Positions 8,653-33,473 of a stretch of DNA of 43,122 nucleotides are shown here, one piece after another. The stretch comes from Lachnospiraceae bacterium. Lineage in GTDB: Bacteria > Bacillota > Clostridia > Lachnospirales > Lachnospiraceae. The notes beneath the pieces are model-generated. The model worked only from the letters and a program-made list of their open reading frames with translations. It was not told where the DNA came from and searched no databases. How positions within the stretch are numbered: position 1 is the first letter of the stretch; every line of letters starts with the position of its first letter. The translations under genes were made by a program, and so were the position numbers. The DNA is taken from NCBI GenBank assembly GCA_017437785.1, contig JAFRXH010000051.1, positions 1 through 43,122 on the forward strand, written 5' to 3'.

Positions 8653-10917
8653 TCAATCCTCCTGCTTGAGACTTTCAACCATATCAACTCTGTCAAGCTT
8701 GCGGCTTCCGAAGTAAAGTGACACGATATATGCACCCACGACTATAAAAAAGTACATTATCAGAGTAACAGGCTTCACCACAACATCAATATACACGCCA
8801 GAGTGTTCTGTAGAGCCCAGCATCATGAGCTTCGTCATATATATCGTTATAGGGATCGCCAAAATATAGCAGCATGGCAAAAGCAGGTGATTCGGGCGAA
8901 GTATGATCTGTCTTATCTCCGATCCGTGATACCCCAGCACCTTCAACATAGAGATATTTCTCTCATTTTCATCAATCAGCATACCTGAGAGAAGGTTGAC
9001 CATAAGAATACATACGATGATCCCAACCGTCAGAAGTATTGCATATACTACCTTTGTCGTGGCAAGCGCCTGCTCAAAGGAATCCCGGTATGAATCAAAA
9101 TCCGCTATCTTAAGTATATCTTTTGCAGGCACATCGACAGGTACAGCGCTTAATATATTGTTATATTCGTCCGGTGACACACCCACAATACGTGCAGCAT
9201 TTTCCTTACTTGTGAGTACGAGGCGAAGCGCATCATTGTCAATGATATCACTTATAGTAATGGTCGTTTCCACTCCTGTTATCCTGTGAATAAAGGTGAA
9301 ATCATCGCCCGCGCTGATGCCGTAGTATTTCGCAGCGCCGCTTGTCATATAATACTCACCATAAGTAAGCGGATTTCCCGATAAAGACTCTCTCTTAAGC
9401 AGCGTGTTGTCTTTATCATAACCTATAAGATTAAATGCTACCGAAGTGCCTGGTACTTCAAACATCACATCAATAAGAGTCTGACCATTCTCCACTTCCC
9501 CGGTACGGAAGGTTTTCAGTCCCGTCTCGTATCTGGCATCTCCCATCATGTCGGGCAGTACATTTTCAAGTACATTACGCTGTGAGTCCTGACACATGCC
9601 TCCGAGAAGTATGATCATGCTTGCAACGGTCATGCCTATGATAAACACCAGTGTCCTTACCGGATTTCCGATAAGGACACGAAACATATATACCGTTTTA
9701 AACCGAAGCCCCGACCCCCGGAAAAGCTTCCTGACCGTTTTTACATTCTTTCCTTTCTTCATAAGCATGGAAGCGTCTTTGCGAAGTAAAACAGAAGTAA
9801 CAATAACAGTCACCATGATATTGAATATGATCGGCAAAATGAATGCAACAACCATATATATGATTTTGTATCTCACACTGTAAGGAAAGCTGTCGACATC
9901 ACCATAGAAAAATGCGCAGAAAGCTCTTGAAAACGGAATTCCCGCCAGAATCCCCCCTAAGCTTCCGATAACGGACGGAATAAGCGCATAAAGAACATAG
10001 TGCCTGTTAAGCTCGCTCTCCTTATACCCAAGTGCCTTCAATGTACCGATATTAACCGATTCACCGTCTATGATACGCGAAAGCATAAACGCAACTATCA
10101 CCATAACAAGTGCGAAAAGGATGATGCTGTAAGAAGAGAACTCCTCCTTAAGCATGACTGCCTCACCCCTGAGTGTAGATATTCTGGAATTTGCGTCTGA
10201 ATTGAAGTACTCGACAGGTCTGTAGTCCGCGTAAAGAGTCTGCCTGAATGGATTAATATTATTGCTGTCATAAAAGATCACACTGTAATATGTATTATCT
10301 GTAAGAGTCATATCCGATTTCAGAATCTTTTCATAAGTATCGTCACTTACAACCGCTGTCGTAAAATGATAATAGTCGCCTATGGTCTCCGTGAGATCCT
10401 TTAAAGTATTCAGATAGTCCGGTCGAAGGGCATACCCGCCGATGGTCAATTTCTCATTACCGATCACCACTTCGTCACCTATGGAGAGATTGTTGTAACC
10501 GGCGTATTTTTTACATATATATACAACATCGTCCGTAGCGGATGAAGGTGTCACCTCTGTGCTTTTGCCATCTTTTGTCTCAAATATCCACGTAAGATTG
10601 ACCTTTGAAGATGCGCTAAACACCCTTATGATGTTATCTCCGATTGTGATATCCGTATATTTTTGCTCCTCCAGTAAAAGATCAAAATCATCTTCATATC
10701 GCAGCAGATCTTCATATGATATCTTCTGTCCGGTAGCAAACTGTGCATCCTCGACACACAGATTTCCGTATATCTCCTCGCAGCTTTGTCCCAATGTATT
10801 GGCGGTCGTAAGCGCGCCCACAAGCATAGTCACCGCCACTACCGTAAGAAAACATGTGACCAGATAAAAAGATAAGTTTTTGCGAACGGATCTGAAAGCT
10901 TTACGTCCGAGTGTCAT
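8653..10917 (-). CDS. ABC transporter permease, FtsX/MacB-like
   Basis: Protein of 754 residues. One membrane segment near residues 15-38, an extracytoplasmic domain to about residue 255, three segments around 258-370, another at about 410-430, a second exterior domain, and three final segments at about 630-650, 680-700 and 715-735. This duplicated FtsX layout is typical of MacB-like export or mechanotransmission systems that move peptides or lipoproteins, or release antimicrobials from the membrane. The start overlaps the ATPase stop by four bases (ATGA), so the two form a pair. It is the last gene of the operon led by the tetR at 13135. Confidence 0.85.
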   Translation of the reverse strand: MTLGRKAFRSVRKNLSFYLVTCFLTVVAVTMLVGALTTANTLGQSCEEIYGNLCVEDAQFATGQKISYEDLLRYEDDFDLLLEEQKYTDITIGDNIIRVFSASSKVNLTWIFETKDGKSTEVTPSSATDDVVYICKKYAGYNNLSIGDEVVIGNEKLTIGGYALRPDYLNTLKDLTETIGDYYHFTTAVVSDDTYEKILKSDMTLTDNTYYSVIFYDSNNINPFRQTLYADYRPVEYFNSDANSRISTLRGEAVMLKEEFSSYSIILFALVMVIVAFMLSRIIDGESVNIGTLKALGYKESELNRHYVLYALIPSVIGSLGGILAGIPFSRAFCAFFYGDVDSFPYSVRYKIIYMVVAFILPIIFNIMVTVIVTSVLLRKDASMLMKKGKNVKTVRKLFRGSGLRFKTVYMFRVLIGNPVRTLVFIIGMTVASMIILLGGMCQDSQRNVLENVLPDMMGDARYETGLKTFRTGEVENGQTLIDVMFEVPGTSVAFNLIGYDKDNTLLKRESLSGNPLTYGEYYMTSGAAKYYGISAGDDFTFIHRITGVETTITISDIIDNDALRLVLTSKENAARIVGVSPDEYNNILSAVPVDVPAKDILKIADFDSYRDSFEQALATTKVVYAILLTVGIIVCILMVNLLSGMLIDENERNISMLKVLGYHGSEIRQIILRPNHLLLPCCYILAIPITIYMTKLMMLGSTEHSGVYIDVVVKPVTLIMYFFIVVGAYIVSLYFGSRKLDRVDMVESLKQED

Positions 10918-11612
10918 ATTCCCAGTTCCTCCGCCTTAAGTTTTGTTTTGACAGTATTCTCCACAACCCTTCCGTCCCTGATCCTGACCAGCCTGTCTGC
11001 CATGCCGGATATCCTCTCATCATGGGTTATCATGATGATCGTTGTATTATACCGCTCGTTTATGGCTTGAAGAACTTTAAGAACCTCCCTTGTCGATGCG
11101 GAATCGAGCGCCCCCGTCAGCTCATCGCATAATAAAAGAGCCGGATTTTTCACAATAGCTCTTGCTATCGAACATCTTTGCTGCTGCCCTCCAGAAAGCT
11201 CCGACGGAAAATGCGTCATGTGTTTTTCGAGTCCCAGAACATGAAGCAGCTCAGTCTCGTCAAGAGGCTCTTTCGCTATATCCTTAACAACCCTGACATT
11301 CTCGATAACATTCAATTCGGGTATAAGATTATATGCCTGAAAAACCATCCCCAGTTTCTCCCGGCGGTAATCCGTAAGCTGCTTTTTATTAAGAGCAGTA
11401 ATTTCCAGTCCATCAACAGTTATCGAACCGCTGTCCACACGATCAAGTCCTCCGATCATATTAAGCAAAGTACTCTTACCTGAACCGGAAGGTCCCAGAA
11501 TAACGCAGACCTCTCCTTTTGATATATCAAGACTCACGTCATCCAGCGCCTTAACCGCGGATTCGCCCTGCCCATATCCTCTTGAAATATTTCTTATAGT
11601 TATGTGCTCCAA
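10914..11612 (-). CDS. ABC transporter ATP-binding protein (MacB/LolD type)
   Basis: Protein of 232 residues with Walker [11 protein letters not shown]-loop FQAYNLIPEL, signature LSGGQQQR and Walker B LLLCDELTGALD; the usual Pro after the catalytic Glu is Leu here. Switch His is in MITHDERI. The start is a TTG at 11610-11612 with GAGGTGG five bases upstream. It powers the FtsX-like permease that follows. Located ten bases after a BAAT-type hydrolase in a TetR-led operon, so hydrolase and exporter are probably expressed together. Confidence 0.9.
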   Translation of the reverse strand: MEHITIRNISRGYGQGESAVKALDDVSLDISKGEVCVILGPSGSGKSTLLNMIGGLDRVDSGSITVDGLEITALNKKQLTDYRREKLGMVFQAYNLIPELNVIENVRVVKDIAKEPLDETELLHVLGLEKHMTHFPSELSGGQQQRCSIARAIVKNPALLLCDELTGALDSASTREVLKVLQAINERYNTTIIMITHDERISGMADRLVRIRDGRVVENTVKTKLKAEELGI

Positions 11613-26149: not shown

Positions 26150-26551
26150 TCACTCTGCCCAGTTCTCAATTTTTAGATTGCTTACTCTGGAGAACTCTTT
26201 CACATTATTAGTCACAACAGTATACCCAAGGGACTGCGCATGACCGGCGATCATCATATCGAGAGGTCCTATCGGAGTTCCTTTTTTCTCCAAATCTGCT
26301 CTGATCTTTCCATAGCAATCGGCAGCATCTACATCAAAATCCAAAATCTCAATGTTTGCCAAAAGCATGGATAATGCCAACCTGTTCTTTTCTACGGCAG
26401 CACTTTTTTCTACCCCATGCACAAGTTCTGCATATGTGACCGAAGATACACACACATCTTCAGGCTCAACTTCCTGTAATTTCTGAAACACTTTCTCCGG
26501 CTTATGCTTGATCGAATAGATACAGATGTTGGTATCGAGCATATATCTCAT
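26150..26551 (-). CDS. vapC: VapC-type PIN-domain toxin ribonuclease
   Basis: Protein of 133 residues. Acidic Mg2+ site of PIN nucleases: Asp6 (MLDTN), Glu42 (YAELVHG) and Asp98 (GPLDMMIAGHA), followed by VVTNNVKEFSRV. VapC toxins cleave specific RNAs (often initiator tRNA) to arrest growth. The start overlaps the antitoxin stop by four bases, standard for this module. Confidence 0.93.
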   Translation of the reverse strand: MRYMLDTNICIYSIKHKPEKVFQKLQEVEPEDVCVSSVTYAELVHGVEKSAAVEKNRLALSMLLANIEILDFDVDAADCYGKIRADLEKKGTPIGPLDMMIAGHAQSLGYTVVTNNVKEFSRVSNLKIENWAE

Positions 26552-26778
26552 AATTCTTCACGCTCCTGTACCATATCTGTTGCTCTTCCGTCAGCCATGA
26601 AATCATCAGAGAACATATCTATCGCTCTCATAAAAGAATCCCATTTATTCTGTTTAGGAAGCAGGATCACAATATCTCCAATTTTATTCACCATCACCTC
26701 ATCTGATGTGAAACGACATTCCTTAGGAAGTCTGATTGCCTGACTTCTTCCATTTTCAAAAACCTTTGCAGTCATCAT
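26548..26778 (-). CDS. vapB: VapB-type antitoxin
   Basis: Protein of 76 residues from ATG 26776-26778, chosen for the AGGAAGGTG site upstream; a longer frame to 26934 crosses the promoter. N-terminal AbrB/MazE-like swapped-hairpin DNA-binding domain: AKVFENGRSQAIRLPKECRF; C-terminal acidic and hydrophobic tail MFSDDFMADGRATDMVQEREEL should wrap the toxin. Represses its own promoter with VapC. Confidence 0.9.
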   Translation of the reverse strand: MMTAKVFENGRSQAIRLPKECRFTSDEVMVNKIGDIVILLPKQNKWDSFMRAIDMFSDDFMADGRATDMVQEREEL

Positions 26779-26802
26779 AATGATCACCTTCCTTTCATCT
26801 AT

Positions 26803-26832
26803 AGTATATACCGCGATATAGACCATAGTCAA
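26803..26832 (-). promoter_or_regulatory. vapBC promoter with AT-rich inverted repeat
   Basis: TTGACT (26827-26832), 18 bases, TATACT (26803-26808). CTATA/TATAG inverted repeats around CCGCG (26799-26821) overlap the -10, fitting autoregulation by VapBC. Confidence 0.6.
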
Positions 26833-26873
26833 GAAAAACCTTTGCATATATTCGCTCATGCCCGTCATACACA

Positions 26874-26895
26874 AAAAGAAGCCCACACGGGCTTC
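26874..26895 (-). terminator. terminator after the coiled-coil protein gene
   Basis: GAAGCCC-ACAC-GGGCTTC (26878-26895), with Ts on the minus strand, about 36 bases past the stop at 26931. Confidence 0.85.
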
Positions 26896-26930
26896 TATAA
26901 AAATCAAATTGACTGTAAATAGTAACAATA

Positions 26931-28043
26931 TCATACCTGAATATCAAAAGACATTCCAGGCGAAGCCTCCGCTGCAGGCGCTGCCTCCGCACCGGCGGAT
27001 ACCGCAAACGATGCAGCTTCGAACGATGCCGGTGCAGCGTTTCCGGCTCCCATGCCCGGCAGCATCGCTTCCTTTGTGCTTTGATGCTTTATCATGCCTT
27101 TAAGATAATCCATATCAGCTTTGAGCATGGCTTTGCTTTCTGCCATACGGTGCTTAAGTTTAAGCTCTTTCAGCTCATCTTCCGTCATATGGGGATCGAG
27201 CATCTCCATATCTTCCAGCATTTCCATGGCCTCTTCAAGCTGCTTTAATTCCTCTTCACCGAATTCAGAGATCATCTCATTAAGATCCGCGAGCATATCT
27301 TCTGTCTGATCTCCAGCATTCTGCCGCATCTCTTTTGCTGCCTGCGTTATCTGCTCTTCCCGGCTCTCAAAGATCTCATCTTCCTTTTTGCCCAGCTTCT
27401 CTTCTTCCTCAGAGATCATGGCGTTTCTGATACTGTCTGCAGTCTCCTCCATCTTATCTCTCTGCTCGTCTGATTTAATGGTCCGATCCGCCAGCTCTTC
27501 CAGCTCAAGATGATTCTTTTTCTTTCGAGCAACCAGCTCCATTCGCTTTGCATGGGTAAGAGCCATCTGCAATTCCTCCGGATCACCTTCCTTTGCCGCG
27601 ATCTTTCGCTGCACATCCAGAACCTTTCGTTTGGCTGCCAGAAAAGCCTGTCCCGCGCTCACCGAAGTTTTGGCACGCTGTATCTTATTTGATACCTCTT
27701 TATAGTTATAATTTACCGGAGTCTGTACCTTCTCTTCTTCCTTTTCATCGGATTCAAGCGATTCTTCGATCAAGCTCTTGGGTTTAAGATCATCATTCTT
27801 TGATCCCTGCGCATTGCTGCGGTGAAGATCACGGATCATCTTACGCATCTCCAGTGATTCGTTTATGCTTTGATTCTTAAGCTCTTTTGCAGATGATGCT
27901 CTGTCCGGCCCGCTCATAATACCGCGCTTTTTTCCAATAGGATTTCCGGCCGTCTTATCCGCACGGCCGTATACACCGGAACTGCCCTGCATCCCGCCTG
28001 AGTACATTGATCCATATGAAGATATCGTGCTGATCCCTGCCAT
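26931..28043 (-). CDS. unknown coiled-coil-rich protein
   Basis: Protein of 370 residues; ATG at 28041-28043 after GGGAGG. I do not recognise a family with a known function. The N-terminal 45 residues are Gly/Ser/Tyr-rich (AGISTISSYGSMYSGGMQG) and end GNPIGKKRGIMSGPDR. Residues about 50-310 are highly charged and helical with long heptad-like runs (Lys/Glu-rich, then Met/Glu-rich EEAMEMLEDMEMLDP). The last 45 residues are Ala/Pro/Ser-rich (ASFEAASFAVSAGAEAAPAA). No signal peptide or membrane helix. This looks like a cytoplasmic scaffold or structural protein. It has its own terminator; a 28-base piece of it is repeated at 26074-26101. Confidence 0.7.
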   Translation of the reverse strand: MAGISTISSYGSMYSGGMQGSSGVYGRADKTAGNPIGKKRGIMSGPDRASSAKELKNQSINESLEMRKMIRDLHRSNAQGSKNDDLKPKSLIEESLESDEKEEEKVQTPVNYNYKEVSNKIQRAKTSVSAGQAFLAAKRKVLDVQRKIAAKEGDPEELQMALTHAKRMELVARKKKNHLELEELADRTIKSDEQRDKMEETADSIRNAMISEEEEKLGKKEDEIFESREEQITQAAKEMRQNAGDQTEDMLADLNEMISEFGEEELKQLEEAMEMLEDMEMLDPHMTEDELKELKLKHRMAESKAMLKADMDYLKGMIKHQSTKEAMLPGMGAGNAAPASFEAASFAVSAGAEAAPAAEASPGMSFDIQV

Positions 28044-28312: not shown

Positions 28313-29686
28313 TCACCCCAGCTTTAAGAATATCATAAGCATTACGATCGCGAAGCCGGCCACAAATGCCAGAGCCCCTTTATCGTTATCCTTTCCCGCT
28401 GCGATCTGGGGGATCTCCTCTATGGTGGTATATATCAGCGCGCCGCCGGCCAGCGCCATAATGAACGGAAGAAGCGCCGGATACAATACCACGATAACTA
28501 CCGTGATCACACCCAAAAGCGGCGTAGGCACGCCGGACACCACTCCCATAAAGAAAGCCTTTCCGGCTTTGGAACCCTTTTCCCTTATGGGAAGAGCTAC
28601 ATATATCGCTTCGGGGATATTCTGAAACGCGATGGCTACAGCCAGGACCAGAGCCACGCTTTTAGATACCCACTCCGTCTGCATAAAATGCGCAGCATAT
28701 ATCGCGCCCAGCGCAATGCCCTCCGGTATATGATGTATCACCTCAGTCAGCATTACCTTTATCGCAGGATCAAGTCCGCTTTTAGGTCCTTCCGTTATCT
28801 CGGAATAAACATGAGTATGCGGCACGGCTTTATCAAGGATAAGCTGTATCACCACCCCCAGCAGGAAGCATATCGTCACCGGTATAATACCGTTTATATT
28901 CTCCTTGTTAAGTCCGTCTATCGCCGGCTCTATCATTCCCCAGACAGCTATCGACAGCATGATACCCGAGCTGCCTCCCACCAGTACCGCGCGCAGATCA
29001 TCAGCCATACGGTTCTTTTTAGCATATATCACTGCAGAACCAAGCAGCGTACCTATAAGCGGGATGAGCATGCCGAAGATCGTATCCCCGTCAGATAAAG
29101 TCTGTGACTTATCAAGATAGGTTATAAGAGAACGGAAGCCTATAAATATCAGTATCGTTCCGCCCATGATCTCGGATCCCGATTTATAACGGTCACCGAA
29201 AATGCTTCCTATCTTCACCCCGATCATTGAAATGATACAGGTGATCACTCCAATCACTATGACAGCAAATATCACATTGATAAGATGGCCTGCCTTAAGC
29301 ACCTCTACAGGAACTGCCACAAATGTAATACCCACAGCCAGCGCATCAATACTGGTAGCCACCGCCATCATAAACATAGTCTTTACATCAAAACCGGGAG
29401 CTGCCTCTTCATCGTCACCAAGCGCTTCCCTGATCATATTCCCGCCTATAAAAGAAAGGATAGCAAAGGCCAGCCACGGCGCTATCATACTGATAAGCTT
29501 TTCAAAGTTTGAACCGACCAGATAACCGATAAAAGGCATCAGCCCCTGAAAACCGCCAAACCACACTCCACACAGAAGGTATTCTTTTTTCGTTATCTTT
29601 CCTGCCGCAAGTCCTTTGCATATTGATACCGCAAAGGCATCCATCGCCAGTCCCACCGATAAAAGTATCAGTTCAAATAAGCCCAT
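28313..29686 (-). CDS. MntP manganese exporter fused to a ZIP-family metal transporter
   Basis: Protein of 457 residues from ATG 29684-29686, four bases after GGGGGAG. Residues 1-195 are a full MntP: SVGLAMDAFAVSICKGL with its conserved Asp, GFQGLMPFIGYLVG, and SIDALAVGITF in the second half. Residues about 200-457 are a ZIP (GufA-like) transporter with HHIPEGIALG (318-327) and QNIPEAIYVALP (355-366), the two metal-binding helix motifs. The frame is uninterrupted and no internal ribosome site is seen, so this is a true fusion with about 14 helices. MntP exports Mn2+; ZIP proteins usually move divalent metals into the cytoplasm. It follows the riboswitch-controlled ABC genes by 85 bases. Confidence 0.88.
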   Translation of the reverse strand: MGLFELILLSVGLAMDAFAVSICKGLAAGKITKKEYLLCGVWFGGFQGLMPFIGYLVGSNFEKLISMIAPWLAFAILSFIGGNMIREALGDDEEAAPGFDVKTMFMMAVATSIDALAVGITFVAVPVEVLKAGHLINVIFAVIVIGVITCIISMIGVKIGSIFGDRYKSGSEIMGGTILIFIGFRSLITYLDKSQTLSDGDTIFGMLIPLIGTLLGSAVIYAKKNRMADDLRAVLVGGSSGIMLSIAVWGMIEPAIDGLNKENINGIIPVTICFLLGVVIQLILDKAVPHTHVYSEITEGPKSGLDPAIKVMLTEVIHHIPEGIALGAIYAAHFMQTEWVSKSVALVLAVAIAFQNIPEAIYVALPIREKGSKAGKAFFMGVVSGVPTPLLGVITVVIVVLYPALLPFIMALAGGALIYTTIEEIPQIAAGKDNDKGALAFVAGFAIVMLMIFLKLG

Positions 29687-29715
29687 TCTACTCCCCCATG
29701 AGATACACAGCAGAA

Positions 29716-29744
29716 ATTCTATCATGGCCGTCAGATGACGTCAA
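29716..29744 (-). promoter_or_regulatory. possible own promoter of the mntP-ZIP gene
   Basis: TTGACG (29739-29744), 17 bases, TAGAAT (29716-29721). No terminator separates the permease stop (29772) from mntP, so the gene may be read both from this promoter and from the riboswitch transcript. Confidence 0.55.
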
Positions 29745-29771
29745 GCCGGAGTGCTGCAGTTTTATTTCCCT

Positions 29772-32471
29772 TTATTCCACATTCTTAAGCGCAACATCCA
29801 GAGGTATCCTGCGTATCCTGAAAAGGTCTATCAGTGAAACAAAAGCATAACCTATCAGCAGATACACTACCGACAGCACCATTGACTGTCTGCTCATATA
29901 AAATGCAAAGTATCCGTCCATCTGAAGCACAAAGGCTTTAAAGACAAGAAGCATCAGACCGTATCCCGCAAAGAAGCTAAGTATCGCAAAGATCACAATG
30001 ACTACTGCCGTCGGCAGTATATACAATGATGCGATCTCCTTATTCTCAAAGCCCAGTATCTTTACCATGGAAATTGAATGCTCATTTCTCTCGATGATGA
30101 TCTTTGCAAGCAGATATATGAGCGCCGCCGCCAAAACGATCAGTACGTATTTAAATACATTGATCACACCGCCAAGGGAATGTATCAGCTGATTGGTCAC
30201 TTCGGCTATATCATCTGCAGTGATCACCGTCGCTATATAGCTCTCATCTATATCCGTGATCTCTTCATGTGAAAAGTATCCCGTAAAATCATCTGCGTCC
30301 TTTTCAAAAACGGTATTAAAATCCGCATTCCTCATAAATACCGCAATGCCGCCGTCATAATCGATCTGCCCGGCGATCTTGAACTGATAACTTTTATTTT
30401 CATATTCCTCATGCAGATCTATCACATCACCCACGGACAGGTCAAATTTTTTTACAAATGCGCTCGAAGCATATACCGCACTTTCGTTAACATCACTTCC
30501 AAGGCTGACATATGCGCTGTTATCTTCTATTCCGTATACGGTAACGCTCTCATCACCGCCGCTGCCCATTCCGGAACGTATTAAAGATTTATTTCCCTTT
30601 GCATACATAAGATTTTTTGCGCTGAAGCGCTCCGCGCTTTCCTCGGCAGTTTCGATCAGCTCTCCGTCTTCATCCTTACTTCCCATCAGCATATACTGAT
30701 ATTCGGCAAATACCATATCTGCCGCCCTGCTGCCGTAATGCACCAGCGAATCAGGAAGTCCGAATGCAAAGCAAAGCATAAGTTCGATAAATATGACGCC
30801 AAAGATCAGCACCAGATAATTGGGCATATTCTGAAAGAGTATCCTCAAACGGAAGCGGCCAAGAAAAGACCACGCCGGCAGCCGCCTTGCCTTTGTCCTT
30901 TTATTCTTTGCAAGGTCATGGCGCAGAAATCGCAGCGGACTTATCTGCATCCTGCTTACGATAACATACAGATTAACGACCAGCATAAGGACAAAGGGTA
31001 TCACTGTCGTCTTTATAAGAGCAGTTTTACTCCAGACAATACTGCAGGGCGGCAGGCTGTAGCTCTGATAATACAGATTGAGCGCCACACTTTTGAACAA
31101 AGTGTAACCGAAAATGTTTCCTATAACAGCGCCCAGTATGGTAACGATAAACGGCATGGACATAAAATGCCTTATCAGCTCTGCTTTGGTGTATCCTGAC
31201 GCGCGCAGCGTGCCGATCACCGATGCTTCTTTCTCTATAGTATTGCTGATGGTAATGGCAAATATAAATGCAATGACGCCTATCAGGATATAACAGAGTA
31301 TGCTTGTGGTAGTGGAATCGCCCTCAATATCCGATATAGCAAAGTTTCGTGCCTGACTTAAATACCCCGGAAGATAATCCTTAAGCTCATTATCCTCTAC
31401 CAGCGTCTGTGTGATGAGCGCCTTTAAAAACGAATCGGCGTGATCCGCCTGCGCTATCTTATCTTCCGGCGCAGTAATATACTTATATGCATAATTGTAA
31501 TGAACACGCGAATCCAGCTTATCAAACGCCGAAGGTGTCAGCATCGCTACATCAAAACCAAAGGCGTCAAACATAAGATCCGTATTTTTCTCATGAAGAG
31601 TCAGATAATTCACATATGACAGAAGGCCCACTACCTTAAAGCTCTTGTTTCCGACGCTGATCTCATCTCCAAGCTTGACCCCGACATTCTGCGCATGCAT
31701 CCTGTCAATGGCTATCTCGTTATCGGCCGTCGGAGCGCCGCCTTCAAAAAAGACAGCCTTGTCGATCTGCGAATCACTTTTAAAGATCCTTACTGTCGCA
31801 TCCTGCTTTCCGTCATTATCATAGTCCTCTGCTTCGTTTCTGTAAAAGTGTTCGTAGAGCTTAACCGCTACTGGAGTAAAATCTTCAGAGTCCAGATCAT
31901 AGCGTTTGGATATCTCATCCCATTTTTCATCTACAGCTTTGATCACCTCTTCATGCGCTGTTTCATAGGCTTCATCAACCGCCTTTTTATATTCGTCCGA
32001 ATCCTTTGCCTCTGCCAGCGCATCATCAAATCCGGCCTCTATTGCCTGATCGATCTGTTCGCGGATCACAGTCTCATCGCTTATGCCGTACGCTTCACAT
32101 TGTGAACGCACAGCTTCTTCTATAGCTGCATTTACTTCTTCAGCAACTTTCTCTTCAACGGCATCTGCAACTTCTTTATCAGCTTCCTCGATTCCTTTGT
32201 TAATATAATATTCACGTACATCAGCCTTTGTGCCTGCTTCGATATCTGCGATCATATCCTCAGAAGCTTTATGCGCTGTCTCAAAACAGCCGTCCTCAAG
32301 AACAAGTTCTTTTTCCCCTGCGTTGATCTGAGCGAGCATGCTGTCATGTCCTACATACATGCCGGAGATCACGCCTATCATCAATACCATAAAGATGATT
32401 ATTACTATATATTTGTGCCAGTCTTTGATAAGCTCTCTGGGCACTCTTTTTATAAGCGGATTTCTCATCAT
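29772..32471 (-). CDS. large FtsX-like ABC permease with acidic coiled-coil exterior domain (Mn-riboswitch operon)
   Basis: Protein of 899 residues from ATG 32469-32471 after TAGGTG; a second ATG follows directly. First helix near 20-40, then an exterior region of about 340 residues. Its first half is strongly acidic and helical (roughly 65-195, Glu/Asp/Ala-rich). It is followed by a D-x-D-x-D-G-x-x-D loop (DYDNDGKQD, residues 216-224), like EF-hand/dockerin metal sites. Then come three FtsX-type helices, a fourth near 565, a second exterior domain and three last helices. The FtsX/MacB layout with two exterior domains is clear. Placed downstream of a Mn2+ riboswitch and upstream of mntP-ZIP, it is probably involved in manganese export or Mn-linked envelope stress; this is inference. 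Confidence 0.85.
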   Translation of the reverse strand: MMRNPLIKRVPRELIKDWHKYIVIIIFMVLMIGVISGMYVGHDSMLAQINAGEKELVLEDGCFETAHKASEDMIADIEAGTKADVREYYINKGIEEADKEVADAVEEKVAEEVNAAIEEAVRSQCEAYGISDETVIREQIDQAIEAGFDDALAEAKDSDEYKKAVDEAYETAHEEVIKAVDEKWDEISKRYDLDSEDFTPVAVKLYEHFYRNEAEDYDNDGKQDATVRIFKSDSQIDKAVFFEGGAPTADNEIAIDRMHAQNVGVKLGDEISVGNKSFKVVGLLSYVNYLTLHEKNTDLMFDAFGFDVAMLTPSAFDKLDSRVHYNYAYKYITAPEDKIAQADHADSFLKALITQTLVEDNELKDYLPGYLSQARNFAISDIEGDSTTTSILCYILIGVIAFIFAITISNTIEKEASVIGTLRASGYTKAELIRHFMSMPFIVTILGAVIGNIFGYTLFKSVALNLYYQSYSLPPCSIVWSKTALIKTTVIPFVLMLVVNLYVIVSRMQISPLRFLRHDLAKNKRTKARRLPAWSFLGRFRLRILFQNMPNYLVLIFGVIFIELMLCFAFGLPDSLVHYGSRAADMVFAEYQYMLMGSKDEDGELIETAEESAERFSAKNLMYAKGNKSLIRSGMGSGGDESVTVYGIEDNSAYVSLGSDVNESAVYASSAFVKKFDLSVGDVIDLHEEYENKSYQFKIAGQIDYDGGIAVFMRNADFNTVFEKDADDFTGYFSHEEITDIDESYIATVITADDIAEVTNQLIHSLGGVINVFKYVLIVLAAALIYLLAKIIIERNEHSISMVKILGFENKEIASLYILPTAVVIVIFAILSFFAGYGLMLLVFKAFVLQMDGYFAFYMSRQSMVLSVVYLLIGYAFVSLIDLFRIRRIPLDVALKNVE

Positions 32472-32476
32472 ATCAC

Positions 32477-33184
32477 CTACCATTCCAGTTCTTCAGCCGT
32501 AAGCTTCTTATCATTAAGATCATTATGACGCACCACGCCGTCCCTGAGTTTTATCACATGATCCGCCATATATTTGATCGCTTCGTTATGCGTTACCATG
32601 ATAACCGTGCTGCCGAATTTCTTATTGCAGTCTTCGATCAACGCCAGGATCTCTTTTGATGTCTTGTAATCCAGAGCCCCCGTCGGTTCATCGCACATGA
32701 GTATATCCGGATTTTTAACAACAGCGCGTCCTATTGACACTCTCTGCTGCTGGCCGCCGGATAACTGGCTGGGATATTTATACTTATGATCCTGAAGTCC
32801 GAGAGTGGTGATCACCTCTTCAACATCAAGCGGCTTATCCGAAAGATAAGCGCCCACTTCAATGTTTTCCTTTACATTCAGATTGGGGATAAGATTATAC
32901 ATCTGGAATACATATCCCAGATGTCTGCGCCTGTATGCCGTAAGCTGTTTCTCATTCATATCCTCAAGCTTATCACCTTTAATGCTTATATATCCGCTGT
33001 CAGGCGTATCTATGCCGCCGATTATATTTAACAGCGTTGACTTGCCCGATCCGGAGGGCCCCAGTAATACACAGAACTCTCCTTTATCGACTGTAAAACT
33101 CATGCCGCGCAGTACATCCTGTCTGGCTTCTCCTGTTCCGAAACTTTTTTTCAGATCCCTGATCTCCAAAAATGTCTTATTCAT
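32477..33184 (-). CDS. ABC transporter ATP-binding protein (Mn-riboswitch operon)
   Basis: Protein of 235 residues from ATG 33182-33184, three bases after GGAGGAG; the open frame upstream runs through the riboswitch terminator and is not coding. Walker [11 protein letters not shown]-loop [10 protein letters not shown], signature LSGGQQQR, Walker [13 protein letters not shown], switch His in MVTHNEAI: MacB/LolD type. Pairs with the FtsX-like permease starting five bases after its stop. Its leader holds a yybP-ykoY riboswitch and a terminator, so expression should rise with manganese. Confidence 0.92.
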
Positions 33185-33209
33185 AGCTCCTCCTTTTGGC
33201 TGTAGATTG

Positions 33210-33242
33210 AAAAACCCGGATATGGCAAAAACCATATCCGGG
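33210..33242 (-). terminator. riboswitch-controlled intrinsic terminator
   Basis: CCCGGATATGG and CCATATCCGGG (33232-33242 and 33215-33225) form a perfect 11-base stem followed on the minus strand by five Ts (33210-33214). It lies between the aptamer and the ATPase start, only 26 bases before the ATG, so it is a regulatory attenuator rather than an operon end. Confidence 0.88.
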
Positions 33243-33254
33243 TCCCAGATCTGA

Positions 33255-33375
33255 TCATATACAGACTCCATGCATAGTTTTTGCTACACATGAGTCTCGC
33301 AATTTGAAGCAAGCCAGACTATAAGGCCGGGATTGTTGACTTACTACGCAAAGCGCTTGCTACTCCCCCATGGGG
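33255..33375 (-). promoter_or_regulatory. yybP-ykoY (Mn2+) riboswitch aptamer
   Basis: Reading the minus strand the leader shows the conserved blocks of RF00080 in order: GGGGGAGTAGC (33359-33369), GTCAACA followed by CCCGGCC and CTGG in the inner arm, and GCGAGACTC (33292-33300). AGCAAGC (33355-33361) pairs with GCTTGCT (33308-33314) to form the long arm. GACTC pairs with GAGTC (about 33264-33268) to form the second arm. The two loops GGGGAGTAGC and GCGAGAC form the Mn2+ site in this class. Mn2+ binding is expected to prevent the downstream terminator and switch the operon on. The full consensus has not been checked by covariance model. Confidence 0.87.
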
Positions 33376-33436
33376 TATTTCCGTTATGTCGATCATACTG
33401 CAGTTATCACAGTATGACGTTTCATTTGTTGCCGTC

Positions 33437-33465
33437 ATCATATCATCATATGAACATATTGTCAA
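33437..33465 (-). promoter_or_regulatory. promoter of the riboswitch operon
   Basis: TTGACA (33460-33465), 17-base spacer, TATGAT (33437-33442), giving a leader of about 245 bases before the ATPase start. The -35 lies nine bases beyond the stop of the preceding membrane-protein gene. Confidence 0.8.
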
Positions 33466-33473
33466 ATGTTATT

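Follow-up and report, generated by a model that had tools for sequence, protein, structure and literature searches.

We consider a riboswitch and the genes behind it in a 43,122-nt stretch of DNA from a Lachnospiraceae bacterium (contig JAFRXH010000051.1 of assembly GCA_017437785.1; the whole stretch is called the window below). According to the reading that we regard as likely, a riboswitch of the Mn2+-sensing yybP-ykoY class turns on an FtsX-type ATP-binding cassette (ABC) transporter of metal homeostasis when Mn2+ is high, homologues of this transporter carry a probable DtxR-type operator, and the mntP-ZIP gene that follows has been left without a gate of its own. Within this reading, the metal-type control of the ABC pair appears well supported by the comparison of loci across genomes.

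All the components lie on the minus strand from 33465 down to 28313, in the order promoter-like site, structured leader, ABC ATPase, permease, second promoter-like site and mntP-ZIP. The leader and the ABC genes contain:

33437-33465, minus strand: sigma-70-type promoter-like site of the ABC transcript (TTGACA-17-TATGAT, 11 of 12 matches, TG before the second hexamer)
33289-33373, minus strand: Mn2+ riboswitch (yybP-ykoY class) aptamer, 98.1 bits with our covariance model R1
33264-33296, minus strand: switching hairpin H, the P1 3' strand paired with CUAUGCAUGGAGUC; excludes P1
33225-33284, minus strand: antiterminator strands 33284-33273 and 33236-33225, 12 pairs; excludes H and the terminator
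33210-33243, minus strand: intrinsic terminator, a perfect hairpin at 33243-33214 with a U tract (five T at its end)
32477-33184, minus strand: ABC ATPase, 235 aa (ABC_tran, 126.1 bits), ATG start at 33184 with AAAGGAGG ahead
29772-32468, minus strand: FtsX-type permease, 898 aa (Pfam FtsX, 59.1 bits)

The site at 33465-33437 is the best of 15 promoter-like sites between 28000 and 34000 (no excess over the 12.7 in shuffles); it lies directly upstream of the leader and is retained in the related loci L033, L034 and L035. The leader folds with a z-score of -5.0, and none of 200 shuffles is equally stable. The original prediction, made from the letters of the window, had placed an aptamer and a perfect terminator hairpin ahead of the ABC pair, and both are confirmed at 33289-33373 and 33243-33214. 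Its boundaries for the aptamer (33255-33375) are right to within a few bases on the 5' side, but on the 3' side they take in most of hairpin H. In a simple scan for terminators, the hairpin at 33243-33214 is replaced by a shorter stem that overlaps it (33250-33236).

The aptamer and its class

The aptamer is made of P1, the loop L1 (GGGAGUAG/GAGAC), P1.2, P2 and P3 with the loop L3 (CAACA..UGG). By DNA search the leader is present in 14 of 60 genomes, counting that of the window; RNAalifold on 15 leaders gives P1, P1.2, P2 and P3 around a three-way junction with the L1 and L3 loops, and R1 is the covariance model built from these 15. It matches in 105 of 392 genomes of the order (Lachnospirales) and in 28 of 398 genomes of the phylum (the window's own genome is in both sets, with one match). 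In an alignment of 101 distinct aptamers, fitted to the model and drawn from the 100 better-scoring loci with the lowest-scoring left out, 97.3% of the cells are paired and 17 of the 22 pairs are changed on both sides, while none of 500 shuffles equals the real alignment on any measure. The helices P1, P2 and P3 are thus backed by covariation. The loops are nearly constant in a set of 102 that again excludes the lowest-scoring R1 loci: GGGAGUA of L1 in 101-102, GAGACU in 94-102, and CAACA of L3 in 96-102. These are the conserved L1 and L3 loops with the discriminator adenine, and the L3 adenine is invariant (102/102). We take the last L3 adenine to align with A41 of the known aptamer. That residue contacts Mn according to an excerpt of PMC9190785.

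The relation to the Rfam family RF00080 has to be weighed with care. R1 matches all ten fetched loci where RF00080 scores below its cut-off (nine at E <= 0.019 and one at E 0.54), and ten of the 29 sub-cut-off RF00080 places in the order coincide with R1 places. Several points nevertheless speak against the assignment. The RF00080 match that had been proposed as a check, and whose absence was to refute the prediction, is not reached at the leader: at the gathering score of 45 bits the window has no match, and the 371 leader bases give 12.9 bits. No match is found on a 171-base stretch (which cuts the 12.9-bit match) or, at E 0.001, in the window's whole genome. Moreover, R1 gives only a weak best match (15.5 bits, E 0.46) in the E. 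coli region, at a place upstream of mntP, and the L3 loop of the subtype seems to be one base off the canonical loop. The same RF00080 test, however, reaches its cut-off in none of the 392 order genomes (25 have sub-cut-off matches), fails at gathering on 20 of 20 selected R1 loci, including those before mntP and P-type ATPase genes, and fails on the mntP leader region of E. coli K-12 itself (L309, 2300-2720). A Mn riboswitch is reported at E. coli mntP in excerpts of PMC9603457. The score therefore says little for this group, RF00080 was set aside as the sole test of class, and the class assignment rests on the comparative evidence.

The four-way junction with P4 is absent: the eight columns between P3 and P1.2 hold no model pairs. 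We had considered the three-way junction as a novelty and rejected this, because a three-way-junction member is already reported for mgtA of Streptococcus pneumoniae (in the part of PMC9495176 that describes it). Judged by helices, loops and targets, the aptamer is best assigned to the Mn2+-riboswitch class, as a subtype common in the order.

Genes behind the aptamer

The genes next to the aptamer were taken from 130 of the 131 R1 places in the order (G253:C183:6755-6842 is left out) and assigned by blast to reference proteins plus one motif, with Pfam confirming a single reference protein for each of the P-type ATPase, exchanger and GDT1 families. The next gene is MntP in 67 (four of them fused to ZIP), a P-type ATPase in 27, a Na+/Ca2+-exchanger type in 13, the ABC pair in eight including the window, GDT1/UPF0016 in three and another gene in 12. 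Mn or cation exporter families thus stand behind 110 of the 130 aptamers.

The search for the same ABC pair behind the aptamer in other genomes, which the original prediction had called for, succeeds with these eight copies. Among the first-fetched loci of the same genus, the aptamer precedes the pair in L033, L034, L035, L036, L037, L038, L044 and L045 as well as in the window. At least four lineages are represented among the permeases behind the aptamer (the window with L163 and L129 at >=32% identity; L037 with L038; L070 with L077, both partial sequences; and L089), and identity between lineages is 18-32% by blast. Control of FtsX-type ABC pairs by an aptamer of this class, as read from these arrangements, is recurrent in other genomes, and metal genes are among the neighbours.

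Some other targets were met along the way. In three loci (L172:2286-3410, L164:2250-3392, L182:2332-3447) an OAD_beta protein (507-512 bits) lies directly behind a Mn2+-class aptamer, and the arrangement is also seen by eye in L145 and L177; this Na+-transporting decarboxylase beta subunit is an unexpected target and possibly a further cation exporter. A methyl-accepting chemotaxis receptor stands directly behind the aptamer at L106:516-2225, hinting at Mn2+-governed taxis. The R1 aptamer at L043:5671-5754 (82 bits) has no obvious terminator or efflux gene behind it within the stretch viewed, and is perhaps an orphan or decaying copy.

The census also bears on the ligand. The subtype might sense another divalent ion (Fe2+, Ca2+ or a mixture), with the ABC pair answering to that ion. 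Two sources lend this some weight and count against our reading: a review anticipates that other divalent ions will be the ligands of some yybP variants (PMC7266159), which makes this the main rival on the ligand, and the pneumococcal mgtA member binds Ca2+ according to an excerpt of PMC9495176. The ABC family also has feoB neighbours and an operator type common to feo genes, as described below. Against another ligand stand the 67 of 130 copies before MntP, a Mn2+ exporter family, the 27 before a P-type ATPase, and the invariance of the L3 adenine that we align with A41. We consider another ligand quite improbable, and keep to Mn2+ as the signal.

A predicted switch of competing helices

The leader contains three pairs of mutually exclusive helices, P1/H, H/antiterminator and antiterminator/terminator. 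The 3' strand of P1 has CUAUGCAUGGAGUC as its alternative partner, giving hairpin H (33296-33264), and the 3' arm of H has an alternative partner in the 5' arm and loop of the terminator, with 12 pairs in the window. The antiterminator was evaluated in 108 of 141 leaders, the 33 without a terminator-like hairpin being dropped: the cognate strands pair at -10.4 kcal/mol and non-cognate ones at -7.3, and none of 5000 permutations reaches this. In a trimmed set of 93 leaders, H gives -15.1 against -10.3 with permuted pairing and the antiterminator -9.7 against -7.7 (0 of 5000 permutations each).

The prediction from these conserved competing helices is a switch turned ON by Mn2+, with the antiterminator as a separate element, because P1, the antiterminator and readthrough go together while H goes with the terminator. 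Binding of Mn2+ would stabilise P1. Once formed, P1 would sequester the 5' arm of H and leave its 3' arm free to pair with the 5' arm of the terminator, and the polymerase would then read into the ABC genes. In the absence of Mn2+, H would form together with the terminator and transcription would stop.

Not everything favours this scheme. The cognate antiterminator partner has a median rank of 22 among 108 (37 for the window), so that the effect is one of the mean; both H and the antiterminator are at or below -8 kcal/mol in just 52 of the 93 leaders, and the window's own trimmed antiterminator is at -6.5. The computed energies of the window are -60.6 for P1 with the antiterminator, -68.5 for P1 with the terminator and -77.9 for H with the terminator. 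Since the OFF state is computed to be more stable at equilibrium, the ON state would have to come from the ligand and the co-transcriptional order of folding. One review, in an excerpt of PMC11477304, classes these riboswitches as OFF switches.

Metal-type control of the ABC pair elsewhere

For the ABC family we take the best 80 of 551 homologue loci, mostly from rumen and other gut Clostridia. A strong R1 aptamer precedes the ABC genes in 17 of the 80, and weak matches (21-27 bits) are found in L255, L256, L257 and L263, where canonical-looking aptamers are visible; by eye they are also seen in L258, L262, L265 and L279. Most of the homologues examined have no aptamer, which counts against our reading. 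Many of the loci carry an inverted repeat, GTTAGC-N4-GCTAAC, near the promoter. Among 71 upstream regions, 15 have the aptamer only, 36 the repeat only, eight both and 12 neither (the repeat is scored at two mismatches or fewer, and is present in 1.7% of shuffled regions). Left out of the 80 are four loci without an ATPase gene at 70% identity, L223 and L273 with too little upstream sequence, and L218, L275 and L278. In the 12 regions with neither, four (L204, L210, L222, L245) have a DtxR-family gene directly upstream of the pair, and two (L258, L262) show an aptamer by eye.

The exact repeat occurs at 47 sites in 26 of 60 genomes, and a reversed control pattern at nine sites in four; the window's genome has no exact copy. 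Over 26 loci it stands before FeoA in three and before FeoB in three (three FeoA and one FeoB are Pfam-confirmed), before a window-type ABC ATPase in one, and before ATPases of 53-54% identity in two. The other side of this count is that 20 of the 26 show no feoA or feoB, and mostly other or unclassified genes. DtxR-family genes adjoin the ABC pair in six of the 80 loci, upstream in L204, L210, L222 and L245 and downstream in L215 and L233, and the three scanned (L222, L245, L210) all have both DtxR-family Pfam domains. The repeat thus occurs both in promoters of feo genes and close to genes of the DtxR family. From these contexts and the DtxR/IdeR operator consensus, we infer a DtxR/IdeR-type operator.

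From the split of the 71 regions we conclude that RNA, probably a protein, or both exert metal-type control over the ABC pair, and that the pair probably belongs to metal control but has been overlooked there. In a tree of 86 ATPases there are 13 changes of the aptamer state as scored, 11 after rescoring (L034, L258 and L262 had first been scored without aptamer), and 20 of the repeat; this is a quick tree in which 47 of 83 inner branches are weak. From a set of 45 proteins, L268, L270, L276 and L277 are left out, a stop being reported only in L277.

FeoB is present in 14 and ZIP in nine of the 80 ABC loci. A genome has about four matches to PF02421, of which roughly two are strong, and about 0.8 to ZIP; we estimate from this that fewer than one FeoB and fewer than one ZIP would fall by chance in the roughly 1 Mb of flank; because the loci are related, the estimate is no test. 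These neighbours bear on a further explanation, that the pair has an ordinary envelope job such as peptide or lipid export, with Mn2+ control that is incidental or belongs to a general response to stress. The permease indeed has numerous relatives (71 of 98 genomes have a match), and FtsX-type pairs typically handle peptides, lipoproteins or lipids. It is harder to reconcile with at least four permease lineages under the aptamer and with the recurrence of FeoB, ZIP, DtxR genes and the feo-type repeat around the family, although the related loci make these counts not independent. We find this explanation doubtful while granting it real weight, and prefer a role in metal homeostasis.

A few loci show more complex arrangements. 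At L258 and L265, one contig has riboswitch-like leaders before the ABC pair (by eye) and before an exchanger gene (R1, 20-30 bits), and FeoB between them. In L255, L256, L257, L262 and L263 a second promoter-like region lies behind the aptamer and upstream of the ABC ATPase; its inverted repeat, of the type ATATGAAC..GTTCATAT, is reminiscent of ArsR/SmtB operators. ABC pairs near FeoB (L036, L052) or a P-type ATPase (L036, L049, L051) have a shared N-terminus. The window itself holds a second, distant pair at 8713-11603 (FtsX-type permease 22% identical, ABC ATPase 51%), with no R1 match there.

mntP-ZIP and its lost aptamer

Behind the permease, three further features are found:

29716-29744, minus strand: promoter-like site of mntP-ZIP (TTGACG-17-TAGAAT, one of three sites with 10 of 12 matches)
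29688-29700, minus strand: 13-nt stub CATGGGGGAGTAG of a deleted second aptamer, recognised by comparison with sister genomes
28313-29686, minus strand: mntP-ZIP fusion, 457 aa (Pfam MntP 135.6 bits, ZIP 41.9 bits)

The fusion that had been recognised from the letters is borne out, both Pfam domains being over their cut-offs, and it is the single copy found in the window's genome; fusions of 456-475 aa also occur at L054, L056, L058 and L083. In the sister genomes G025, G024 and G029 there are two aptamers, one before the ABC pair and one before mntP-ZIP, the latter with a promoter-like site and terminator of its own. The site at 29744-29716 is common to the sisters, where it lies ahead of the second aptamer. 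When the window is aligned to them, the promoter and CTCATGGGGGAGTAG are retained and then directly followed by AATGGGC..., the mntP start; the remainder of the second aptamer, its H and its terminator are lost. The GGGGGAG retained in the stub is likely the ribosome-binding site of mntP-ZIP. With the second aptamer deleted, mntP-ZIP is probably expressed without a Mn2+ gate of its own, and so it is probably no longer gated by its own riboswitch. The GGGAGTA repeats on either side of the aptamer region in the sisters offer a possible route of deletion, yet this does not alone give the exact junction.

The original prediction had treated the parts as one co-controlled unit, in which a single riboswitch would govern the ABC genes and mntP-ZIP as one operon, with no terminator in between. 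The 85-nt gap between permease and mntP indeed has no terminator-like site listed (one match lies inside the permease end, 29876-29852), and this part of the claim holds; what it missed in the gap is the promoter-like site and the stub. With these, mntP-ZIP is more than a tail of the ABC transcript. The separate aptamers of three sister genomes, and in one of these (L034) the roughly 4 kb between the permease and the mntP aptamer, also stand against a single unit, which we now regard as somewhat unlikely; readthrough from the ABC genes may still add to mntP-ZIP expression.

The missing aptamer could also be an artefact of assembly, the genome being a draft of 107 contigs and the two aptamers of G025 (whose permease is 99% identical to the window's) being about 80% identical. 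The junction, however, has no repeat long enough to collapse, and the promoter-like site and start codon are in working order, so that we hold an artefact to be very unlikely and read the junction as a deletion.

Elsewhere in the window, at 26150-26934, a PIN-domain protein (Pfam, 73 bits) follows a small protein that looks antitoxin-like by eye and matches no Pfam family, a VapBC-like pair.

Function of the ABC pair

The permease has two FtsX stretches and two large hydrophilic segments; it had been described as an FtsX-like protein of 899 residues, and the type stands while the length is 898. The FtsX permease domain with an adjoining ABC ATPase places the pair in the FtsX-type (type VII) ABC superfamily. 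It does not have the fused ATPase and permease or the periplasmic core of MacB: the genes are separate, and MacB_PCD scores 21.2 bits, below its cut-off of 27. We also considered and rejected a metal site at an EF-hand-like loop of the permease (DYDNDGKQD); the loop is retained in close relatives and variable or absent elsewhere.

For the role of the pair, the original prediction had suggested Mn2+-induced efflux or envelope protection, either of which may hold. The superfamily mostly handles lipoproteins, peptides, haem and siderophores. Direct export of Mn2+ would be unusual among these substrates, and export of a metal complex or envelope protection is at least as likely. The pair would most likely serve detoxification, exporting a metal complex or else an envelope component that binds metal or has been damaged by it, with homologues that use the probable DtxR-type operator instead of, or together with, the riboswitch. 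The feoA/feoB-type repeat before many aptamer-less homologues suggests a wider Fe/Mn role. Two points stand against this proposal: a sequence search of solved structures gives no match at E 0.01, and under a DtxR-type repressor genes would be expected to come on when metal is low. The opposite signs expected of such a repressor and of a Mn2+ ON switch would suit expression when the Mn-to-Fe ratio is high.

A bolder version makes the FtsX-type pairs a new family of primary, ATP-driven metal-stress exporters set by the Mn-to-Fe balance, on which Mn2+ RNA and DtxR-type sensors interchange repeatedly or work jointly; the window would then show a natural escape, in which deletion of one of two riboswitches freed mntP-ZIP. 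Mn2+ itself, a Mn or Fe complex (a metallophore or porphyrin) or metal-damaged envelope parts may then be what is exported. We offer this version as a speculation, on balance unlikely to hold in full.

The literature searches showed no report of a link between a Mn2+ riboswitch and an FtsX-type ABC transporter, although a listing in an earlier paper is possible. What uncharacterised transporters do has often been indicated by the riboswitches that control them, and here a Mn2+-class riboswitch points to a transporter type, the FtsX-like ABC, for which those searches showed no such link. Because an RNA sensor and a probable iron-type repressor interchange on one gene, the combination of Mn and Fe signals can be tested directly, and the deletion of the mntP aptamer is a natural experiment on losing riboswitch control.

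Comparison with known systems

The aptamer shares with RF00080 the L1 and L3 loops, P1 as switch helix, control through a transcription terminator, and MntP and P-type ATPase targets. It differs in its sub-gathering score, the missing P4 arm, the new target family, and the position of the P1 strand, which lies outside the terminator in the separate hairpin H with an antiterminator in between. In the yoaB riboswitch of L. lactis, according to excerpts of PMC11087558 and PMC6754395, strand exchange of P1.1 decides termination and Mn2+ leads to readthrough. In our leader too, exchange of a P1 strand would control termination, with readthrough at Mn2+; the P1.1 3' strand of yoaB sits in the terminator stem, whereas in our leader the signal would be relayed through H and the antiterminator. 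The MntP and ZIP (ZupT) transporters are both represented in mntP-ZIP by Pfam domains over cut-off, here in one fused chain. With the MacB, LolCDE and FtsX-type (type VII) ABC transporters the pair has the FtsX domain of the permease in common, and the ATPase scores highest with the DevA, DarD, MacB and LolD models, none over cut-off among the best 25 of 191; it differs from them in its separate genes, its two FtsX stretches, the lack of a solved relative by sequence, and its metal-type control.

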